A DNA stretch of 64,000 nt, from NCBI GenBank assembly GCA_001599595.1, contig BCHH01000001.1, forward strand, positions 2,389,837-2,453,836. The letters are read 5' to 3'. Made by a program: the position numbers and the translations under genes. Below the pieces are notes generated by a model. The model did no database searches and was not told the origin of the DNA. It was given only the letters and a program-made list of their open reading frames with translations. This DNA comes from Beverwykella pulmonaria (taxonomy: Eukaryota; Ascomycota; Dothideomycetes; Pleosporales; Melanommataceae). Position 1 is the stretch's first letter. Each line of letters starts with the position of its first letter. Below are positions 3,619 through 56,722 of this stretch, piece by piece.

Positions 3619-5763
3619 ATGTCAAGAGACCACAGCACATCCACACCCACCTCCCGATGGCCAACACTAACTCTACAAATCCCATTCCATCTCCTCGGCA
3701 CGCACAATGTCCCCACGTATGTCTACAACTATACCGAGCGCCGCATAAAACCGCTACAAACGTTGCATGCTGCTTTTGGAAAGGCTTGTCCGGATGTCCC
3801 CATCTCAGTATGGATTCCGGATCCGAGGCCTGTGCCCGAAGTAGGAGTGGTGTGTAGAGATGGGACGAAGATGGCTGAATTTGAAAAGAAGGTTGGTGAA
3901 TGGAGGGAGGAGGAAGCGAGGAAGTGGGAAGAGATGAAGGAAAAGGGGTGGGTGTTGAGAAGGGCAGAGAGTAATGGGGAAATGGAAGAGGAAGGACTAG
4001 TGGGGTGGAAGAAAGGTGATTCTCGTTTCACGGCCTGTGAGACGAAGGTTGTGGGGAGCGTGTGGAGTTTCTCCGCCGTCCTGCAAAGATTCAAGGTCCC
4101 GATGAGCGAGACGGGCAGACTGAAATTGGATGTTGAGATCAGGAGCATATGTGGGGTTTTGAAGGGTGCGTTCGGGTATAGTGAGGAGGAAGAGGGTGAG
4201 AAGGAGGGCGGGGAGTTGCCTGGGTTCGGGAGCGATGGGAGGAAGATGTTCTTAAGAGTCATGTGCAGTGAGAGGTGCTGGGCTAGGATTGCAGTGTATC
4301 CGCCGGTCGAGATGAAGCCCGACGCCGACCTACAAGATACGCATACCCGGGGTGGAAACGTAAATGAGCAGGGCTGGCCGCTCCACACAATCGCAAAGAT
4401 ACTGTTGCTTCTTGTTGCTTTTGAGCGCGAACTACTTTCCCTCAGCAACGTATCCGGAATCCTTGAACATGCGCCTCTATCCCGCTTTCTCGAGTATTTT
4501 TGTGTTAATAATTTCAGAAGGGAGAAGAGGGAGATGTGGCGCGCCTTGCACGTCGGTCAGAATAATGCTAATGATGCAAAAGAGAGGGAGCGGAAGAAGA
4601 AGTCCTGGGCGAGAAACCTAAATCACGAGGGCGAAACCGATGGAAGGGCGTTTGAAGACGACAGGCTCGGACTTTGGACGGTCATCGATGGAATGGTTTG
4701 CGGGGTCAGGGCGGAAGAGAGGGTGGGCGTGTTGGTAGGGGAGATGGGGAAATTCGAGGAAAGGAAGAGGTTGGCTGTGAGTTTTGCTTCGAAGTACGAC
4801 GGAAACCAACATCCATTTACTTTCACCACTACGAAAGCATCGGTCAAACCCGAAAACAAATCAAACGAAGCTCCAGAAACCCCTCCTCCACCTTCCCCAT
4901 TCATCCCTCCAACTATCCCATGCATAACCTTCCAAGACTACCACAGCACACTGGACGCCTGCCATCTCCTCGCATATATCGATCTCGCGACGCGCATCGT
5001 CGACTACGCGATCTCAAACCGGTACACTACACTAAAGACAAAAGTCGAGACGTTCAGAGAAACGGTCGAGGATCTCGATGAAGAGGTCAGGGTGTCTCTG
5101 AACAGGCTTTTGCATATGCTGGGGTTGAGGGTGTGGGCTGTGAATGTTTTAATGGGAGCTAAGAAGAATGAAATCGTCGATAAAGAGAAGGGGAAGGAGA
5201 AGGGCAAGAGAAAGGATGACAGTAGGGTAAAAAAAGGAGGCACCTTGGAAGAAATGGAAAACGATACATGGAAAGAAGAATACCCCTTCATGCCCCTGCT
5301 CTCGTACATCCGCAAAACCTGCCTCAAGGACAAAGAGTACATGACAATCTTTATCCGCCGGTACACCGAAGCGGGGGGGTTTCTCGTTATTCCGCGGACA
5401 AAAATACATGACCTCCTCCTCGTCCAAGATAAAGCGAAGAACGAGAAGTTCGCGGAAACGGAAGCGTGGGCCAATGGTTTAACGTCTACAGGCCTCCTGA
5501 GTGAGAACGACGATGAGCTCAAGAATGAAGTCTATGAGGTAGGGACAACAGGGTTGGTCATTGCGAGTCCGGTGAGTCCGGTGAGTTTAGAGCACCCTAT
5601 TACACCGATTTCTCCGCTGCATATTCGGAAGAAAAACAACGCAGGAGGAGGAGTAGGAAATACTGGGATCGATGAGGTTTTGCGTTCTCCAGGTTTGGGT
5701 GGTAGTGTTGGGAGTTTGGAGGGGATTGGGAATGAGGACAGAGGGAAGAGAACGACAGTGTGA
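3619..5763 (+). CDS. Diverged amidoligase-like protein, probably non-catalytic
   Basis: Single open frame of 714 residues. The family call rests on two blocks. The first, around residues 265-285 (GWPLHTIAKILLLLVAFERE), resembles the 'FPLxTLKNLxxLxxAFE' block of fungal putative amidoligases. The second, around residues 437-460 (ITFQDYHSTLDACHLLAY), resembles their 'IEFRQHxGTLDxxxxxxW' block. The His-x-His-Val-Gly motif expected between these regions is replaced (CSERCWARIAVYPP), and the usual N-terminal 'FGVExEF' segment is not seen. The protein therefore looks like a degenerate or repurposed member. It contains Lys/Glu-rich insertions (about residues 520-545) and a Gly/Ser-rich tail. The same frame continues as protein-like sequence after the TGA TAG double stop (see findings). 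Function unknown; it could also be a fungal orphan. Confidence 0.5.
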   Translation: MSRDHSTSTPTSRWPTLTLQIPFHLLGTHNVPTYVYNYTERRIKPLQTLHAAFGKACPDVPISVWIPDPRPVPEVGVVCRDGTKMAEFEKKVGEWREEEARKWEEMKEKGWVLRRAESNGEMEEEGLVGWKKGDSRFTACETKVVGSVWSFSAVLQRFKVPMSETGRLKLDVEIRSICGVLKGAFGYSEEEEGEKEGGELPGFGSDGRKMFLRVMCSERCWARIAVYPPVEMKPDADLQDTHTRGGNVNEQGWPLHTIAKILLLLVAFERELLSLSNVSGILEHAPLSRFLEYFCVNNFRREKREMWRALHVGQNNANDAKERERKKKSWARNLNHEGETDGRAFEDDRLGLWTVIDGMVCGVRAEERVGVLVGEMGKFEERKRLAVSFASKYDGNQHPFTFTTTKASVKPENKSNEAPETPPPPSPFIPPTIPCITFQDYHSTLDACHLLAYIDLATRIVDYAISNRYTTLKTKVETFRETVEDLDEEVRVSLNRLLHMLGLRVWAVNVLMGAKKNEIVDKEKGKEKGKRKDDSRVKKGGTLEEMENDTWKEEYPFMPLLSYIRKTCLKDKEYMTIFIRRYTEAGGFLVIPRTKIHDLLLVQDKAKNEKFAETEAWANGLTSTGLLSENDDELKNEVYEVGTTGLVIASPVSPVSLEHPITPISPLHIRKKNNAGGGVGNTGIDEVLRSPGLGGSVGSLEGIGNEDRGKRTTV

Positions 5764-45259: not shown

Positions 45260-45727
45260 GATTGTATTAACAAGGTTCTACTCTATAGTTTTCCATTGCA
45301 GATCCTACATTAACTTGTAACGTAATTCTAAAGGACTCTAAGGCTTGATAAAAGCTCTTAGCTTATGTAGGTAAAGATTTACGTCTAGTAGTCCTGCCCA
45401 CTGTCTTTAGAATTGGTGTTATACATCCGAAAGTGTTTGACTTTAATTGAGTTGATTGAGTTGCTTGGGCTAGATAAATATATAAGGATCAGATAACGCA
45501 CAGGCTCAGTTTGAGTCTAGGGATATTTGAACAATAATATGATGTATACGCGCAAAAGCAAGATTTGCAGTAAAATGCATTAGCCAATTGACTATAATAC
45601 GTCTAATATTCGTTGTGGTAATGACAGGAACCCGTTCTATCCGGCCTGAGCTGAAACCTATTGAAGGAACTCCTTGCAACGGATAGAACTCTCATATTCA
45701 ATCACTTTCCGGCTATATCCTTTCGAA
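45260..45727. other. 3' flank of the single-codon-exon gene
   Basis: AT-rich sequence with no open frame of note. It would carry the 3' untranslated region and poly(A) site of the gene on the - strand; I see no unambiguous AATAAA. Confidence 0.4.
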
Positions 45728-48700
45728 TTACTACGTAACGAGTTAGCAGCAGTCTTGTCAACCATCTAGCCCGTCATAAAAGGGCGCTTGATCCACTTAC
45801 ACCCTGCACCACGACCGTTAGTTAGCAGCCTGTCTAATCAGTCCATCTAGCAATAGGATTGGAACCACTTACACCCTGCACCACGGCCATCAGTTAGCGG
45901 CCTGCCTAACCAGCTCGTCTAGCAAGAGGATTGGGTCCACTTACAAACTGCACCACGACTAGCAGTCAGCAAATTGCTTCGTTAGCCTATCAAGCAAGGA
46001 CTTAAGATCCACTTACACCCTGCACCACGAATAGTAGTTAGTAATTTGTCTTTTTAGTCCGTCAAGCAAGGGTATTACATGTACTTACTTCCTGCATAAT
46101 GACCAACAGTTAGCAGTCTGCTTTATCAACCTGTCTGTCAAGAGGATTGAATCCACTTACGAACTACAACATGAGCAGAAATTAGCAAATTGGCGCATAA
46201 GCCCGTTAAGCAACATTGTAGTTTTGACTTACACCCTGTACCACAACCAGTAGTTAGAAACTTGTCTTATCAGTCCGCCAAGTAAGGGTATTGCATCTAC
46301 TTACACGCTGAATCATGACCAACAGTTAGCAGTCTGCCTAATCAGCCTGTCTATCAAGAGGATTGGATCCACTTACGAACTACACCACGACTAGAAGTTA
46401 GAAACTTTTCTTATCAGTCCGTTAAGCAAGGATATTGTATCGACTTACGCCCTACACCATGACTAGTGGTTAGAGAGTTGTCTTATCAGTCCATTAATCA
46501 AGGGTATTGAATTGACTTACTCCCTATACCACGACCAGTTGTTAGAAATTTGTCATATCAGTCTGTTAAAAAAGAGTGTAGGATCTACTTACACCCTGCA
46601 GCACGAGCAGCAATTAGCAAATTGTCTCATCAGCCCATTAAGCAACATTGTAGGATTGACTTACGTGCTGCACCACAACCAGAAGTTAGAAACTTGTCTT
46701 ATCAGTCCGTTAAGGGTATTGAATCGACTTACTCCCTAAATCACAACCAGTTGTCAGAAACTTGTCTTATTAGTCCATTAAGCAAAGGTATTGCATCGAC
46801 TTACACCCTACACCACGGCTAGTAGTTAGAAACTTTTCTTATCAATCCATTAAGCAAGGGTATTGCGTTAACTTACACGCTGCACCACAACCATTTATTA
46901 GCGATGTGTCTTATCAGCCTACAAGTAAAGATAACTCATTCACTTACTTCCTGTATCACAATCAATAGTTAGCATCTTGCCTAATCAGTCTACAAATTAA
47001 TAGTGTATGATCAACTTACACCCTGCACCATGAGTAGTTAGAAACTGGTCTTATTATTTTTTTAAGCAATGGTATTGCATTAACTTACTCCCTAAACCAC
47101 GACCTGTAGTTAGAAACTTGTCTTATAAGACAATTAATCAAGGGTATTGCATCAACTTACTTCCTACATCACAACCAACAGTTAGCAGTCTACCAAGTCC
47201 ACTAGTCTGTCAAGAGAATTGAATCCACTTACACGCTACACCACAACCAGTTGTTAGAATTTGTTTTGTTAGACTACTAAGCAAGGGTGTTGCATCAACT
47301 TACACCCTATACCACGACCAGTAGTTAGAAACTTGTCTCATTAGTCAATTAAGAAAGGATATTATATCGACTTACTCCCTACACCATGACCAGTAGTTAG
47401 AAAGTTGTCTTATCAGTTCATTAAGCAAGGGTATTGCATTAACTTACTCCCTAAACCACGATCTGTAGTTAGAAACTTGTCTTATAAGACAATTAATCAA
47501 GGGTATTGCATCAACTTACTTCCTACATCACAACCAACAGTTAGCAGTCTACCAAATCAACTAGTCTGTCAAGAGGATTGAATCCACTTACACGCTACAC
47601 CCAACCCGTTGTTAGAATTTGTCTTGTTAGTCTATTAAGCAAGGGCATTGCATCAACTTACACCCTATACCACGACCAGTAGTTAGAAACTTGTCTTATC
47701 AGTCAGTTAAGAAAGGATATTATATCGACTTACGCCCTACACCATGACCAGTAGTTAGAAAGTTGTCTTATTAGTCTATTAAGCAAGGGTATTGAATTGA
47801 CTTACTCCCTACACCACGACCAGTGGTTAGACAGTTATTTTATCAACCTGTTAAGCAAGGGTAATGCATTTACTTACTTCCTGCATCACAACCAGCAGTT
47901 AGCAGCTTGCCTAATCAGTCTGTCAAACAAGAGTGTAGGATCAACTTACACCCTGAACCACGACCAGTAGTTAGAAACTTGTCTTATCAGTCCATTAAGC
48001 GAGGGTATTGTATTGACTTACGCCCTAAATAATGACCAACAGTTAGAAACTTGTCATATAGGTCTGTTAATCAAGAGCATTGTATCAACTTACTTCCTGT
48101 ATTACAACCAACAGTTAGCAACTTGCCTAATCAGTCTGTCAAACAAGACTGTATGATTCACTTACACCCTGCACCACGATTAGTAGTTAGAAACTTATCT
48201 TATTAGTCCGTTAAGCAAGGGCATAGCATTGACTTACACCCTGCACCACAACCAGTAGTTAGAAACTTGTCTTATCAGCCTGTTAAGCGAGGGTATTGCA
48301 TTTACGTACTTCCTGTATCACAACCAACAGTTAGCAGATTGCCCGATCAATCTGTCAAACAAGGGTGTAGGATCGACTTACACCCTGCACCACGACCAGA
48401 AGTTAGAAATTTGTCTTATCAGTCCATTAAGTAAGGGTATCGCATCGACTTACGCCCTACGCCGCGGCCAGTAGTTAGAAACTTGTTTTATCAGTCTATT
48501 AATCAAGGGTGTTGCATCGACTTACTTCCTGTATTGCAACCAATATTTAGCAGTCTGCATAATCAACTCGGCTGTCAAAAAGATTGAATCGACTTACACC
48601 CTGCACCACGACCAGTAGTTAGAAACTTGTCTTATCAGTCTGTTAAGCAAGGGTATTGCATTGACTTACGCCCTACACCATGACCAGCAGTTAGAAACTT

Positions 48701-51700
48701 GTCGTATTAGTCCGTCAAACAAGGGTATTGCATAAACTTACTTCCTGCATTACAACCAATAGTTAGCAGTCTACCTAATCAACCCGTCTGGCAAGAGGAC
48801 TGGATCAACTTACACCCTACACCGCGACTAGAAGTTAGAAACTTTTCTTATCAATTCGTTAAGCAAGGATATTGTATCGACTTACACCCTACACCATGAC
48901 TAGTAGTTAGAAACTTGTCTTATTAGTCAGTTAAGGGCATTGCATTAACTTACGCCCTACACCATGATCCATAGTTAGAGATGTGTCTTATCAGCCTGTT
49001 AAACAAGGGTAGTGCATTTACTTACTTCCTGCATCACAACCAACCGTTAGCAGATTGCCTAATCGGTCTATTAAATAAGAGTGTAGGATCGACTTACACC
49101 CTGCAACACGACCAGTAGTTAGAAACTTGTCTTATCAGTCCATTTAGCAAAGGTATTGCATTGACTTACTCCCTACATTACAAATGGTAGTTAGGAACTT
49201 GACTAATTAGTCTGTTAAGGGTATTGCATCGACTTACGCCCTACACGACCAGTAGTTAGAAACTTGTTTCATCAGTCCGTCAAGCAAGGGTATTGCATCG
49301 ACTTACTTCCTGTATTGCAACTAACAGTTAGCAGTCTGCATAATCAACTTGGCTGTCAAAAAGATTGAATCGACTTACACCCTGCACCACGAATAGTAGT
49401 TAGAAACTTGTCTCATCAGTCCGTTAAGTAAGGGTACTGCATTGACTTACGCCCTACACCATGACCAGCAATTAGAAACTTCTCTTACTAGTCCATTAAT
49501 CAAGGGTATTGCATAGACTTACTTCCTGTATCACAACCAACAGTTAGCAGTCTGCCTGATCAACCTGTTTGTCAAGAGTATTGGATCCACTTACACCCTG
49601 TACCACGACCAATAGTTAGAAACTTGTCTTATTCGTTTTTTAAGTAAGGGTATTGCATTGACTTACACCCTACATTATCACTAGTAGTTAGAAACTTGTC
49701 TTATCAGTCCATTAAGCAAGGTTATTGTATGGACTTACTTGCTGCATCACAAACCAACAGTTAGCAGTCTGCTTAATCAACCAGTCTATCAAGAGGATTG
49801 GATTAACTTACACGCTGCACCACGACCAATCATTAGAAAACTTGTCTTATCAGTCCATTAAGCAAGGGCATTGCATCAACTTACTCCCTACATTACAACC
49901 AAGAGTCAGCAACTTGCCTAATCGGTCTGTCAAGCAAGATTGGAGGATCAACTTACACCCTGCACCAAAACTAGTAGTTAGAAACTTGTCTTATCAGTCT
50001 ATTTAGCAAGGGTATTGCATCAACTTACACGCTGAGCCGCGACCAGTAGTTAGAAACTTGTCTTATCAGTCCGTTAAGCAAGGGTATTGCATCGACTTAC
50101 TCCCTGAATCACAACCAGTAGTTAGAAACTTGTCTTATTAGTCTATTAAGCAAGGGTATTGCATCAACTTACGCCCTACACCACGACTAGTAGTTAGAAA
50201 CTTGTCTTATAAGTCCGCTAATCAAGGATATTGCATCAACTTACACCCTACACCACGACCAGTAGTTAGAAATTTGTCTTATCAGTCAACTAATCAAGGG
50301 TATTGCATCGACTTACACGCTGCATCACAACCAGTTAGCAGCTTGCTTTATCATTCTGTCAAGCAAGAGTGTAGGATCTACTTACACCCTGCACCACGAC
50401 CAGTAGTTAGAAACTTGTCTTATTAGTCCGTTAAGCAAGGGTATTAAATTGACTTACGCCCTACACCCCGACCAGTAGTTAGAAACTTGTCTTATCAGTC
50501 TTTTAATCAAGGTTATTGCATTGACTTACACCCTGTACCACCACCAGTCGTTAGAAATTTGTCATATCAGTCTGTTAAAAAAGAGTGTAGGATCTACTTA
50601 CACCCTGCAGCACGAGCAGCAATTAGCATATTGCTTTATCAGTCTGTAAAGAAAAATTATAGGATCGGCTTACATGCTGCTCCACGACCAGAAATTAGAA
50701 ACTTGTCTTATCATTTAATTAAGCAAGGGTATTGCATCAACGTACATGCTGCACCACAAACAGTAGTTAGAAATTTGTCTTATTAGTCTGTCAAACAAGA
50801 ATGTAGGATCTACTTACACCCTGTACCACGAGTAGCAATTAGCACATTGCCTCTTCAGCCTGTCAAACAACGTTGTAGGATCAACTTACATGCTGCACCA
50901 AGACCAATTGTTAGAAACTTGTCTTATAAGTCTATCAAACAAGTGTATTGCATCGACTTACATGCTGAACCACGAATATTAGTTAGAAACTTGTCTTATC
51001 AGTCTACTAAGCAAGGGTATTGCGTTGACTTACACCCTACACCACAACCAGTAGTTAGAAACTTGTCTTATTAGTCCATTAGGCAAGGATATCGCATCGA
51101 CTTACACGCTGCACCACGACCAGTAGTTAGAAAATTGTCGTATCAGCCCGTTAAGCAAGGGTATTGCATCGACTTACTCCCTACACCACGACCAGTAGTT
51201 AGAAACTTGTCTTATTAGTCCATTGAGCAAGGAAATTGAACCAACTTACACCCTACATCACGACCAGAAGTTAGAAACTTGTTTCATCAGTCCGTAAAGC
51301 AAGGGTATTGCATCGACTTACACCCTACACCACGACCAGCAGTTAGAAACTTTGTCTTATCAGTCCATTAAGCAAAGCATATTGCACAGACTTACACGCT
51401 GCACCACGACCAGTAGTTAGAAATTTATCTTATTAATCCGTAAAGCAAGGGTATTGCATCAACTTACACCCTACACCACGGCCAATAATTAGAAACTTGT
51501 CTTATCAGTCCATTAAGCAAGGGTGTAGCATCGACTTACGCCCTGTATCACGACCAGTAGTTAGAAACTTGTCTTATCATTTAATTAAGCAAGGGTATTG
51601 CATCGACTTACACCCTACACCACGGCCAGCAGTTAGAAACTTGTCTTATGAGTCCGTCAAGCAAGTGCATTGCATGTACTTACTTCCTGTATCATGACCA

Positions 51701-51851
51701 GCAGTTAGTAAATCTTTAGTACATGAACCAGAGAGGTTTCCGGTATACTTGCCTGTCGAACCTGAAGCTCTCCGGCCTGGGCGGCCTCAGAGGTTGGAAG
51801 CGCTAAGGACAGAGATGCCATGAGCATGCTGAAAAGTACGAATAATTTCAT
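45728..51851 (-). CDS. Secreted Gly-rich protein gene with 83 single-codon exons
   Basis: Proposed gene of 85 exons and 84 introns encoding 116 residues. Exon 1 (51851..51753, 33 codons) starts MKLFVLFSMLMASLSLA, a clear signal peptide, and ends ELQVRQ at a CAG/GCAAGT donor in phase 0. Intron 1 is 51752..51687 (GC-AG type, with CTAAC and TACAG). Then 83 exons of exactly three bases follow, each flanked by an AG acceptor and a GT donor. The last intron (45800..45731) ends TAG and the next three bases (45730..45728) are TAA, in phase. Microexon codons, by left coordinate: Glu at 51684, 49523, 49307, 49026, 48742, 48526, 48310, 48094, 47878, 47520, 47161, 46948, 46089. Arg at 51396, 51106, 50317, 50029, 49812, 47592, 47233, 46877, 46305. 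His at 50962, 50890, 50746, 50674, 46665. Phe at 46377, 46161, 45945. Gln at 49739. The other 52 are Gly (31 GGT, 11 GGC, 10 GGA). The product would be a secreted Gly-rich chain with regularly spaced Glu or Arg. Only about 6% of the locus is coding. Seen: splice signals, phase, codons. Inferred: that the introns are really removed one by one. Confidence 0.72.
45731..51752 (-). repeat. Tandem array of 84 spliceosomal introns, ~72-bp period
   Basis: Each unit on the - strand is a 69-nt intron plus 3-nt exon. Consensus features by intron position: GTAAGT 1-6, an 8-bp hairpin in Gly-type units (arms 19-26 and 36-44 with one bulged A), CTAAC 48-52, CAG or TAG 67-69. Of the 83 donors after microexons, 80 are GTAAGT, two GTACGT (48304, 50740) and one GTAAGC (50668). 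The branch motif is CTAAC in most units, with CTAAT or CTGAC in a few. Left ends of the three-base exons: 45801 45873 45945 46017 46089 46161 46233 46305 46377 46449 46521 46593 46665 46733 46805 46877 46948 47020 47089 47161 47233 47304 47376 47448 47520 47592 47662 47734 47806 47878 47950 48022 48094 48166 48238 48310 48382 48454 48526 48598 48670 48742 48814 48886 48954 49026 49098 49170 49238 49307 49379 49451 49523 49595 49667 49739 49812 49885 49957 50029 50101 50173 50245 50317 50386 50458 50530 50602 50674 50746 50818 50890 50962 51034 51106 51178 51250 51322 51396 51468 51540 51612 51684. Twelve of the 82 steps differ from 72 (68-74). Confidence 0.92.
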
Positions 51852-55357: not shown

Positions 55358-55501
55358 CGGCAGTCACATGATCAGCTTTCTGAGTCAAGGATCCTCAAGG
55401 ATCCTCGGCAGTCACGTGATCAGCTTTCTGAGTCAAGGATCCTCAAGGATCCTCGGCAGTCACGTGATCAGCTTTCTGAGTCAAGGATCCTCAAGGATCC
55501 T
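55358..55501 (+). repeat. Three tandem 48-bp repeats with CACGTG/CACATG cores
   Basis: Copies start at 55358, 55406 and 55454; each begins CGGCAGTCACxTGATCAGCT and ends with GGATCCTCAAGGATCCT. Copies 2 and 3 are identical; copy 1 has CACATG instead of CACGTG. Two more matches to the core (TCACATGATTT about 55311 and TCACGTGATTT about 55336) lie just upstream. CACGTG is the E-box bound by bHLH factors. No gene start is evident within 1 kb, so a regulatory role is inference. Confidence 0.8.
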
Positions 55502-56722
55502 CGTATCTTAGAACCTCAAGAATATCATCACCACACAAGCAGGACACTAATACTACGGTATTGGAGCCCACTGCTACGTGGTAATACATTCAACCAGTCG
55601 ATTACCTCTACTGTGACCGTGAATAACCTCGGGGTTACCGACAGCATGTTATTTGTAGGTTACTATGCCATTATAAATTAGTGGTGATCAATAAGTTACG
55701 TTGCATGGATGGACTAAATCGTCTCAGAATATGTGATTGGGGTTTTTATCCTATGCAGGATGATGCAAACATTTAACACCTATCTAGTTCTACTGGGGAT
55801 CTGACAGAATGAGTTAGTAGAAGCTAATAGTGTGAAGGAGTCAAACTTCTTTATTAAAATGCCGTGCACAATGCTTACGACCGACGCTTTGCTGGAAGGT
55901 GGGAGTGGAGGCTAGATCCCGTTCGCTGACCTTCTTAAAACTCAGCTGTGCTCTGCGTTTAAGGTGAGGCCGTTTCGCTCCTGACTGTACAGCATTTTGC
56001 TGGCTACAAAAATTGTCGCTTACTACTTTTATTGCGTCTTAGCAGATACAGAGAACAGCTTAGAATGGACTAATCCTGCTGTCCGGTGGCTGGATGTCAG
56101 TCTCTGCAAAAATTCCAGGAAACGACCCTTCGTAAAGGAATCATACTATGATTTCATCGTTGTTGATTGACGGGAAGAGTGTTGGACATTACATTAGTGT
56201 GATTGGAGTCGCAGAGATTGAAAGAGAGGAAGAATGGGGCATTATACTATCATAAAGTCCTTCCGTACCTTCATCGCTTTTGTGGTGTACCTCAAAGACC
56301 TTTCATGCTGATGGCCACCATCCCGGAAGGATCAAATCTAGAGACAAGGTGTTAGCTCAAAAGCAAACAGTTTCGCCATGACCTTAATTTCACCTCATAG
56401 CACTCCCTCTTGACACGTATCTCGACATGCGCGGTTCCCTCCAGGACGCCATAGGATGTCGGATGCGGTCTACGAGTGGGTGAAGTTTGTGTGTGTATGG
56501 AAGTAAAGGGTTGGTGGAGACGAGAAGGTAGTCGCAGGTGAGGAAGGTGCAAAGCTAGCAGCTTTTCCCGATTTCGAAGTGAAAAGTAATAGAAAATGAA
56601 GTGACAGTGAGAGGCAAAAGTCAAAAGACATTTACCGTATGTTTTATACATCATGCTAGACTTTGTAAAACATACTCCTACTAACACCATATGGACCTAC
56701 AACCTCACAAGCATCCAAACCC
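55502..56722. other. Intergenic, DOP1 3' side
   Basis: No gene supported. The DOP1 3' untranslated region, and possibly a last small DOP1 exon, lie in the right-hand part (see the DOP1 entry). Confidence 0.4.

Follow-up and report, generated by a model that had tools for sequence, protein, structure and literature searches.

A predicted gene of one-codon exons and its relatives in the fungus Beverwykella pulmonaria

Can a spliceosomal gene encode its mature product one codon per exon? This question is raised by a locus of the ascomycete Beverwykella pulmonaria, found on the minus strand (51851-45728) of a 64,000-nucleotide (nt) stretch of contig BCHH01000001.1, here called the window. The locus reads as a one-codon-exon gene, with a first exon followed by 83 three-base exons, 84 introns and an in-frame TAA. 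The feature is most likely a protein-coding gene built in this way and belonging to a family of at least seven such genes plus one decayed copy. What is found in the sequence is the following: splice signals in every unit of the window array, 3-nt exons in phase 0, the lack of stop codons, a shared promoter, exon 1 and 3′ element, and recurrence at seven loci.

Anatomy and splice signals of the window gene

The gene starts with a 99-nt exon 1 of 33 codons (51851-51753), comprising the ATG, a predicted secretion signal and a pro-region, MKLFVLFSMLMASLSLALPTSEAAQAGELQVRQ, and ending in phase 0. A TATA box, TATATAAA, lies 121 nt upstream of the ATG (51972-51965, minus strand). The exon 1 donor is GCAAGT, and the 66-nt intron 1 (51752-51687) is of the GC-AG type. 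The array proper (51686-45801) consists of 83 one-codon exons alternating with 82 introns, from a first GAA (51686-51684) to a last GGT (45803-45801), all internal exons being of phase 0 and length 3. A last intron of 70 nt (45800-45731) leads into the TAA stop codon (45730-45728), with which the last exon opens.

The spliced coding sequence comprises 351 nt; its product consists of MKLFVLFSMLMASLSLALPTSEAAQAGELQVRQ and then 83 residues in which Gly, Glu, Arg and His are abundant. The original prediction, made from the sequence alone, had proposed a 33-codon signal exon in phase 0, 83 single-codon exons with 84 introns and a 351-nt coding sequence closed by an in-phase TAA; each of these elements was recovered exactly, with no unit missing. 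Within the array, intron length varies from 65 to 71 nt (69 nt in 70 of the 82), and the in-frame retention of one such intron would introduce a stop codon in 81 of 82 cases.

The pattern AG-NNN-GTA[AC]G[TC] is present in 83/83 units, and exactly three bases separate each acceptor from the next donor, as had been claimed. The donors are GTAAGT (80/83), GTACGT (two) or GTAAGC (one), with a donor-to-donor spacing of 68-74 nt (72 in 70/82). When 82 units are aligned, nine of the 72 columns are invariant, corresponding to donor (G1, T2, A3 and G5), branch (C48, T49 and A51) and acceptor (A68 and G69) bases only. The units were defined by their donor and acceptor columns, and the branch columns played no role in that definition. 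The chance that nine invariant columns all fall within the 13 splice columns is 8e-9, a figure to be read with the fact that the 13 were chosen after the data had been seen. Outside the splice sites, columns 35 (80/82) and 42 (81/82) are nearly invariant. The claim that the repeat is more than a plain satellite is thus borne out by its invariant columns.

The three-base exon length is also recovered when it is not imposed. A parser with free exon length, based on a general fungal splice consensus, resolves the window array into 83 exons of 3 nt with a score of 1112, as against 217 for the reversed sequence and 240 for the opposite strand. Furthermore, a genome-wide search for GTAAGT-N48..78-AG-NNN-GTAAGT yields 383 matches versus 30 for the reversed pattern, whereas the same pattern with six bases in place of three yields 5 versus 20 in the control. 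The three-base spacing is therefore specific.

A family of related genes and their common 3′ element

The genome (45.6 Mb in 31 contigs) contains at least six further loci with the anatomy of the window gene, plus one decayed copy, and this recurrence strengthens the original prediction. This census is a lower bound, its complete listing covering solely exons that start with T. The recognised three-nt exons number 36 in L009 on contig C2 (38 counting two more 5′ ones from the free-length parser), 88 in L010 and 80 in L012 on C3, 22 in L013 on C5 and 55 in L015 on C15. In L014, also on C15, about 1.1 kb of N interrupts the array between the 14th and 15th recognised units, with 14 exons on one side and 45 on the other. 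The eighth array, L038, sits at about 1.859 Mb on the minus strand of C3 and has 20 such exons, so that the internal exons recognised per array gene range from 20 to 88. Its signal peptide is different, its last exon adds about 14 codons (by eye), and its 75-nt intron consensus is only 61% identical to that of the window (core score -8; shuffled mean -18, standard deviation 4). It is therefore regarded as either a very distant relative or an independent array. The decayed array, L039, lies on the minus strand of C11 (about 4770-5650 of the reverse complement); it retains a few one-codon units and a 3′ element in degraded form, its array includes a segment that looks unrelated, and no intact exon 1 was seen there.

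The seven related genes have in common an exon 1 of secretion type, a TATA box, homologous introns, an early stop in the last exon and a 3′ hairpin element. Exon 1 of all eight array genes resembles a fungal signal peptide, as judged by eye, and 8/8 have a TATA-like box whose distance to the downstream ATG is 109-122 nt (TATATAA in seven, TATAAGA in L009). The stop is immediate in six of the seven related genes and follows one codon in the seventh, the last exons opening with TAA (5/7), TGA (1/7) or CCA-TAG (1/7). Each of the six sister loci has an intron consensus that shares 81-84% identity with that of the window, and the 126 matches to the window intron sequence (a lower bound) all lie at array loci, including the decayed one on C11. 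In an exon 1 alignment of the window gene and five sisters, leaving out L015 with its longer exon 1, the nonsynonymous rate (dN) was below the synonymous rate (dS) in 6/6 pairs tested, of 15 possible. A genome search with one exon 1 peptide returned two places, the query itself and L009, and missed the other known members.

The free-length parser resolved the sister arrays into 3-nt exons throughout, the exceptions being one exon in L012 and two in L009; L038 was excluded and only the 3′ part of L014 was chained. One of the longer L009 exons corresponds to a unit with a broken acceptor, and the L012 exon lies at an AAG acceptor. Across the eight arrays, 122/434 intervals deviate from the modal length of their own locus. 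The branch adenine is placed 18 nt before the AG in 354/433 introns, a decoy AG at least 10 nt past the branch occurs in 10/433, and at the seven related loci a CTRAY motif occupies one fixed position in 373/414 introns. In 189/414 of these introns, a second CTRAY-like motif was seen 38 nt from the 3′ end, the main one being at 22.

Genome-wide searches for other forms of array produced nothing new. Arrays with a GTGAGT first donor gave 30 matches versus 41 in the control (already known loci, isolated hits and a dispersed repeat), arrays with shorter introns gave 2 versus 20, and no new array with 6-nt exons was found. The dispersed repeat met with the GTGAGT pattern starts with GTGAGTAAGGTTGTC or a near variant and occurs on C1, C4, C8, C12, C16 and C21. 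In viral contigs, the three-donor pattern was found in 31 stretches; the six with at least five clustered motifs were read and resemble ordinary tandem repeats.

The 3′ element is about 85 nt long (45696-45612 in the window, minus strand) and begins 31 nt past the stop codon. Its core pattern, with three mismatches allowed, has exactly seven matches in the genome, one downstream of each related gene, and none in the control. In its fold, a 10-bp stem encloses an inner hairpin. Among eight sequences, including the decayed one, 98.4% of the cells pair, a value reached in 1/500 shuffles, and three stem pairs have changed on both sides, as in 13/500 shuffles. Because further pair types are no more numerous than in shuffles (267/500), the covariation support for the stem is moderate. 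A search of 45480-45800 against Rfam at E values up to 10 returned no match for the element. The hairpin may regulate the array transcripts through their stability, localisation or splicing.

Coding potential, splicing and alternative explanations

The products of these genes are predicted to be small secreted peptides. The secreted Gly-rich protein of the original prediction stands for the window gene, with its Gly/Glu/Arg-rich peptide, and does not extend to the sister genes, which encode quite different, Cys-rich or hydrophobic, peptides. L009 encodes six Cys in the order C-C-CC-C-C, an order known from knottins, and the 22-residue peptide of L013 also has six. The L010, L012 and L014 products are hydrophobic chains whose ends, of the FCA...KC type, are related, and the L015 peptide is rich in Gly, Ile and Cys. 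No stop is found in the 443 codons of the eight arrays, where 6.9 would be expected from the positional base composition of each gene (P ~0.001); this count excludes two apparent TAA units, in L013 and L009, as parse errors, the one in L009 being replaced by a unit with a CAA acceptor.

The third codon base, which adjoins the donor, is T in 321/443 codons and G in 9/443. G is commonly preferred at this position. The avoidance of NAG codons was considered as proof of exact exon definition, and this was rejected. Such codons make up 1/30 in the arrays versus 26/47 in exon 1 of the same genes; however, G-ending codons are rare overall in the arrays, with 8/54 among A- or G-ending codons with another middle base versus 681/1290 in five reference open reading frames, and the avoidance is therefore not specific.

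Several observations weigh against a family of genes coding one codon per exon. Codons are no better conserved than the aligned introns in three paralogue pairs, so that purifying selection on the peptides cannot be shown from them. Identity by codon position is 0.67/0.78/0.82 versus 0.79 for introns in L012/L014 (27/45 residues identical), 0.39/0.67/0.76 versus 0.78 in L010/L012 (22/75) and 0.54/0.68/0.76 versus 0.78 in L010/L014 (18/41). These pairs were aligned by protein, since an alignment of the arrays by intron similarity only gave nothing above permuted order. The codon divergence would fit fast-diversifying secreted peptides and, equally, unused codons. In addition, L015 has five Cys, an odd number. 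Two spliced sister proteins had no homologue among 5.8 billion predicted proteins, in a search that reaches only relatives sharing short exact words, and seven spliced proteins, including that of the window, matched no Pfam family at the cut-off (below it, DUF1505 was matched by L038 at E 0.017 and EMP70 by L010 at E 2.2). Non-canonical acceptors also occur in the sisters, with AAG in six units (three in L012, two in L015 and one in L038) and CAA, without any AG, in one unit of L009. Finally, simple arithmetic indicates that 83 introns spliced with 99% accuracy each would yield the full-length product less than half the time.

If the gene is spliced as its signals suggest, exon 1 would provide the secretion signal and the pro-region, the three-base exons would supply the whole mature peptide, each contributing a single codon, and a stop, or a codon and a stop, would open the last exon. 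Each intron of 69 nt, with its branch adenine usually 18 nt before the AG, would be recognised across itself by intron definition, because an exon of 3 nt could hardly be recognised by exon definition. The uniform intron length and the near-perfect donors fit this mode. Since each acceptor is 3 nt from the next donor, neighbouring introns would have to be excised at different times: U1 at a donor would overlap the step-two machinery at the preceding acceptor, so adjacent introns would not be processed together. They would instead be removed serially or in alternating rounds, the upstream exon gaining one codon per step. Exon skipping would preserve the frame, and intron retention would nearly always introduce a stop. 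In L010, L012 and L014, a CAG abuts a GTTAGT or GTAAGC within the first intron (129-130 nt), leaving 69 nt up to the first codon. This CAG/GTNAGY zero-nucleotide exon could act as a recursive splice site; none was found in the window array.

It is also proposed that the arrays grew through the duplication of blocks of intron plus codon. Intron similarity in the window array is highest at lag 3 among lags 1-19, and four pairs of introns five units apart are 93-99% identical, pointing to recent block duplication and thus to this kind of growth. Introns of the window array that precede the same codon resemble one another more than the rest do (0.786 versus 0.738, above all 500 permutations), while those that follow the same codon are not (0.749 versus 0.747). 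A rather unlikely extension would see a dedicated class of fungal genes here, in which the 3′ hairpin, acting in cis, would mark the precursor messenger RNAs for serial splicing, with exon skipping, whether controlled or due to errors, and block duplication creating in-frame peptide diversity at the level of RNA as well as DNA.

Four other explanations of the arrays have to be weighed. In one of them, which is possible although on balance unlikely, the genes are real and spliced, with an exon inclusion that is deliberately or unavoidably partial, and they would serve as a splicing-based generator of in-frame peptide diversity. Since the splice sites are alike, the donor and acceptor sequences of the window gene being nearly uniform, and every exon is one phase-0 codon, any donor joined to any later acceptor stays in frame and skipping would give a large family of peptides. 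Block duplication, evident in the lag-3 maximum and in two introns five units apart that are 99% identical, would alter the array content as well. Nevertheless, the Cys-patterned peptides of L009 and L013 suggest that a defined sequence matters, and intron definition is generally known to favour the nearest acceptor. Alternatively, the whole array might be excised in long jumps or as a single enormous intron, with exon 1 alone as the product. Such excision would agree with exon 1 being in phase with the final stop and with codons that diverge at least as fast as introns in the three paralogue pairs. It is nonetheless judged quite improbable given the 443 codons free of stops, the Cys-rich patterns and the maintained internal splice signals. 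A single 6-kb intron would be far beyond normal fungal intron sizes, and the leftover product would be a bare signal peptide.

The introns themselves might be the product, the locus being a host gene for small intronic RNAs comparable to those hosting small nucleolar RNAs in many tandem introns. The similarity of the sister intron consensuses to that of the window agrees with this idea, and SNHG14 is described as a precedent for dozens of tandem RNA-bearing introns (PMC11608373). Structured intronic RNAs were rejected, however, at four loci, each represented by at most 60 introns of 69 nt, where no consensus structure exceeded column-permuted controls and the introns folded less stably than shuffled copies. 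No Rfam match was found in the window at gathering scores, and the varied, stop-free peptides would be left unexplained, all of which makes this explanation very remote. Least credible of all is a plain tandem satellite that resembles splice sites by chance, or a decayed gene. The array does register as a 72-bp tandem repeat of 82.5 copies; against this, its invariant columns are confined to splice sites and the identical anatomy is repeated at seven loci with a 3′ element of their own, while the truly decayed copy on C11 looks different, with few units, no intact exon 1 and a degraded 3′ element.

Should the one-codon-exon genes be transcribed and spliced as implied, they would represent an extreme for spliceosomal splicing, with up to 88 recognised three-base internal exons in one gene. 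Placing almost every residue of a mature peptide in its own three-base exon would demand extraordinary RNA splicing. They would offer a system in a filamentous fungus to study the use of adjacent 3′ and 5′ splice sites, the sequential splicing of short introns and the fidelity per intron. They would also allow testing whether introns serve as recombination spacers, with peptides evolving codon by codon. Moreover, the absence of homologues for the two sister peptides searched suggests that gene finders may overlook such peptides.

Elsewhere in the window, a 48-bp unit, CGGCAGTCACGTGATCAGCTTTCTGAGTCAAGGATCCTCAAGGATCCT, is repeated three times with 98% identity on the plus strand (55358-55503), outside the gene. 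An open frame for DOP1 lies near the gene, and its residues 1-500 are 83% identical to a protein of Pleomassaria siparia, the best named match, two other proteins reaching 84%. Those of the other top named matches that could be placed are from Pleosporales, and by this protein the fungus is pleosporalean. No transfer RNA was found in the window, and no 5.8S ribosomal RNA in the genome.

Comparison with known systems

In the open-access literature (titles and the start of abstracts, among the matches listed, in a collection without bioRxiv and most subscription journals), no gene of one-codon exons was found, in fungi or otherwise. This limited scope makes for weak evidence of novelty, and it is with that reserve that the family is said to have no close precedent. 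Several known systems share some of its features.

The micro-exon genes (MEGs) of Schistosoma, which automatic annotation handles poorly, are described as a source of variable secreted proteins; these carry a signal peptide at the N-terminus, and most of the numerous tiny exons keep the reading frame (PMC10526429). According to the same source, a gene has 10-20 short exons, which measure 6-81 bp (3-81 in the abstract) and mostly 15 bp, and its introns span 0.1-5 kb. The array genes likewise have many very short exons, and their putative N-terminal signal would make the product a secreted one. They differ in having internal exons of 3 nt, up to 88 of them, with homologous introns of about 69 nt and a shared 3′ element. 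In terms of MEG membership, their exon size and number (3 nt, 20-88 exons) and the introns of the window array (65-71 nt) depart from the MEG values for exons and from their long introns.

The bicycle and megacycle genes of aphids are presented as fast-evolving putative effectors with many small exons of the same phase, megacycle genes having more than 100 microexons for about 2000 amino acids (PMC9168663). The likeness to the array genes resides in the many small same-phase exons and would extend to the rapid evolution and the putative effector role. Megacycle exons would nevertheless measure tens of nucleotides, because about 2000 amino acids are spread over those more than 100 microexons. 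Bicycle internal exons are mostly of phase 2, whereas those of the array genes are of phase 0 and length 3, and the accessible text of that study describes no one-codon exons (PMC9168663).

Among intron-based systems, introner-like elements (ILEs) are near-identical spliceosomal introns that have multiplied in Dothideomycetes (PMC4457414), the class to which this fungus also belongs. According to the available account, ILEs reside in unrelated genes, whereas the array intron multiplies in tandem with a codon and is matched at array loci alone. The possibility of genome-wide introners was rejected on this last ground, from a lower-bound search. Stwintrons are reported as introns in which one is nested in a splice element of another (PMC8469720); in the window array, donors and acceptors are whole and lie 3 nt apart. 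Recursive splice sites are treated as a feature of very long introns in a 2026 review of non-canonical splicing (PMC13149111). The array genes approach this situation in the zero-nucleotide exon found once each in L010, L012 and L014, and they depart from the reviewed cases in that their introns are short and nearly every step would add a codon.

Finally, exons of minimal size are known to be spliced. One-nucleotide microexons are described in the plant genes APC11 and VPS55, GTRAGT donors flanking that of VPS55 (PMC8831610), and human RPS24 contains a 3-bp exon among three adjacent microexons of 3, 18 and 22 bp (PMC11162997). As documented in these sources, such cases indicate that splicing can handle exons of 1-3 nt. 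As described for APC11, VPS55 and RPS24, however, there is one such tiny exon in each gene, while the array genes would carry dozens of them in a run that encodes the whole mature peptide.

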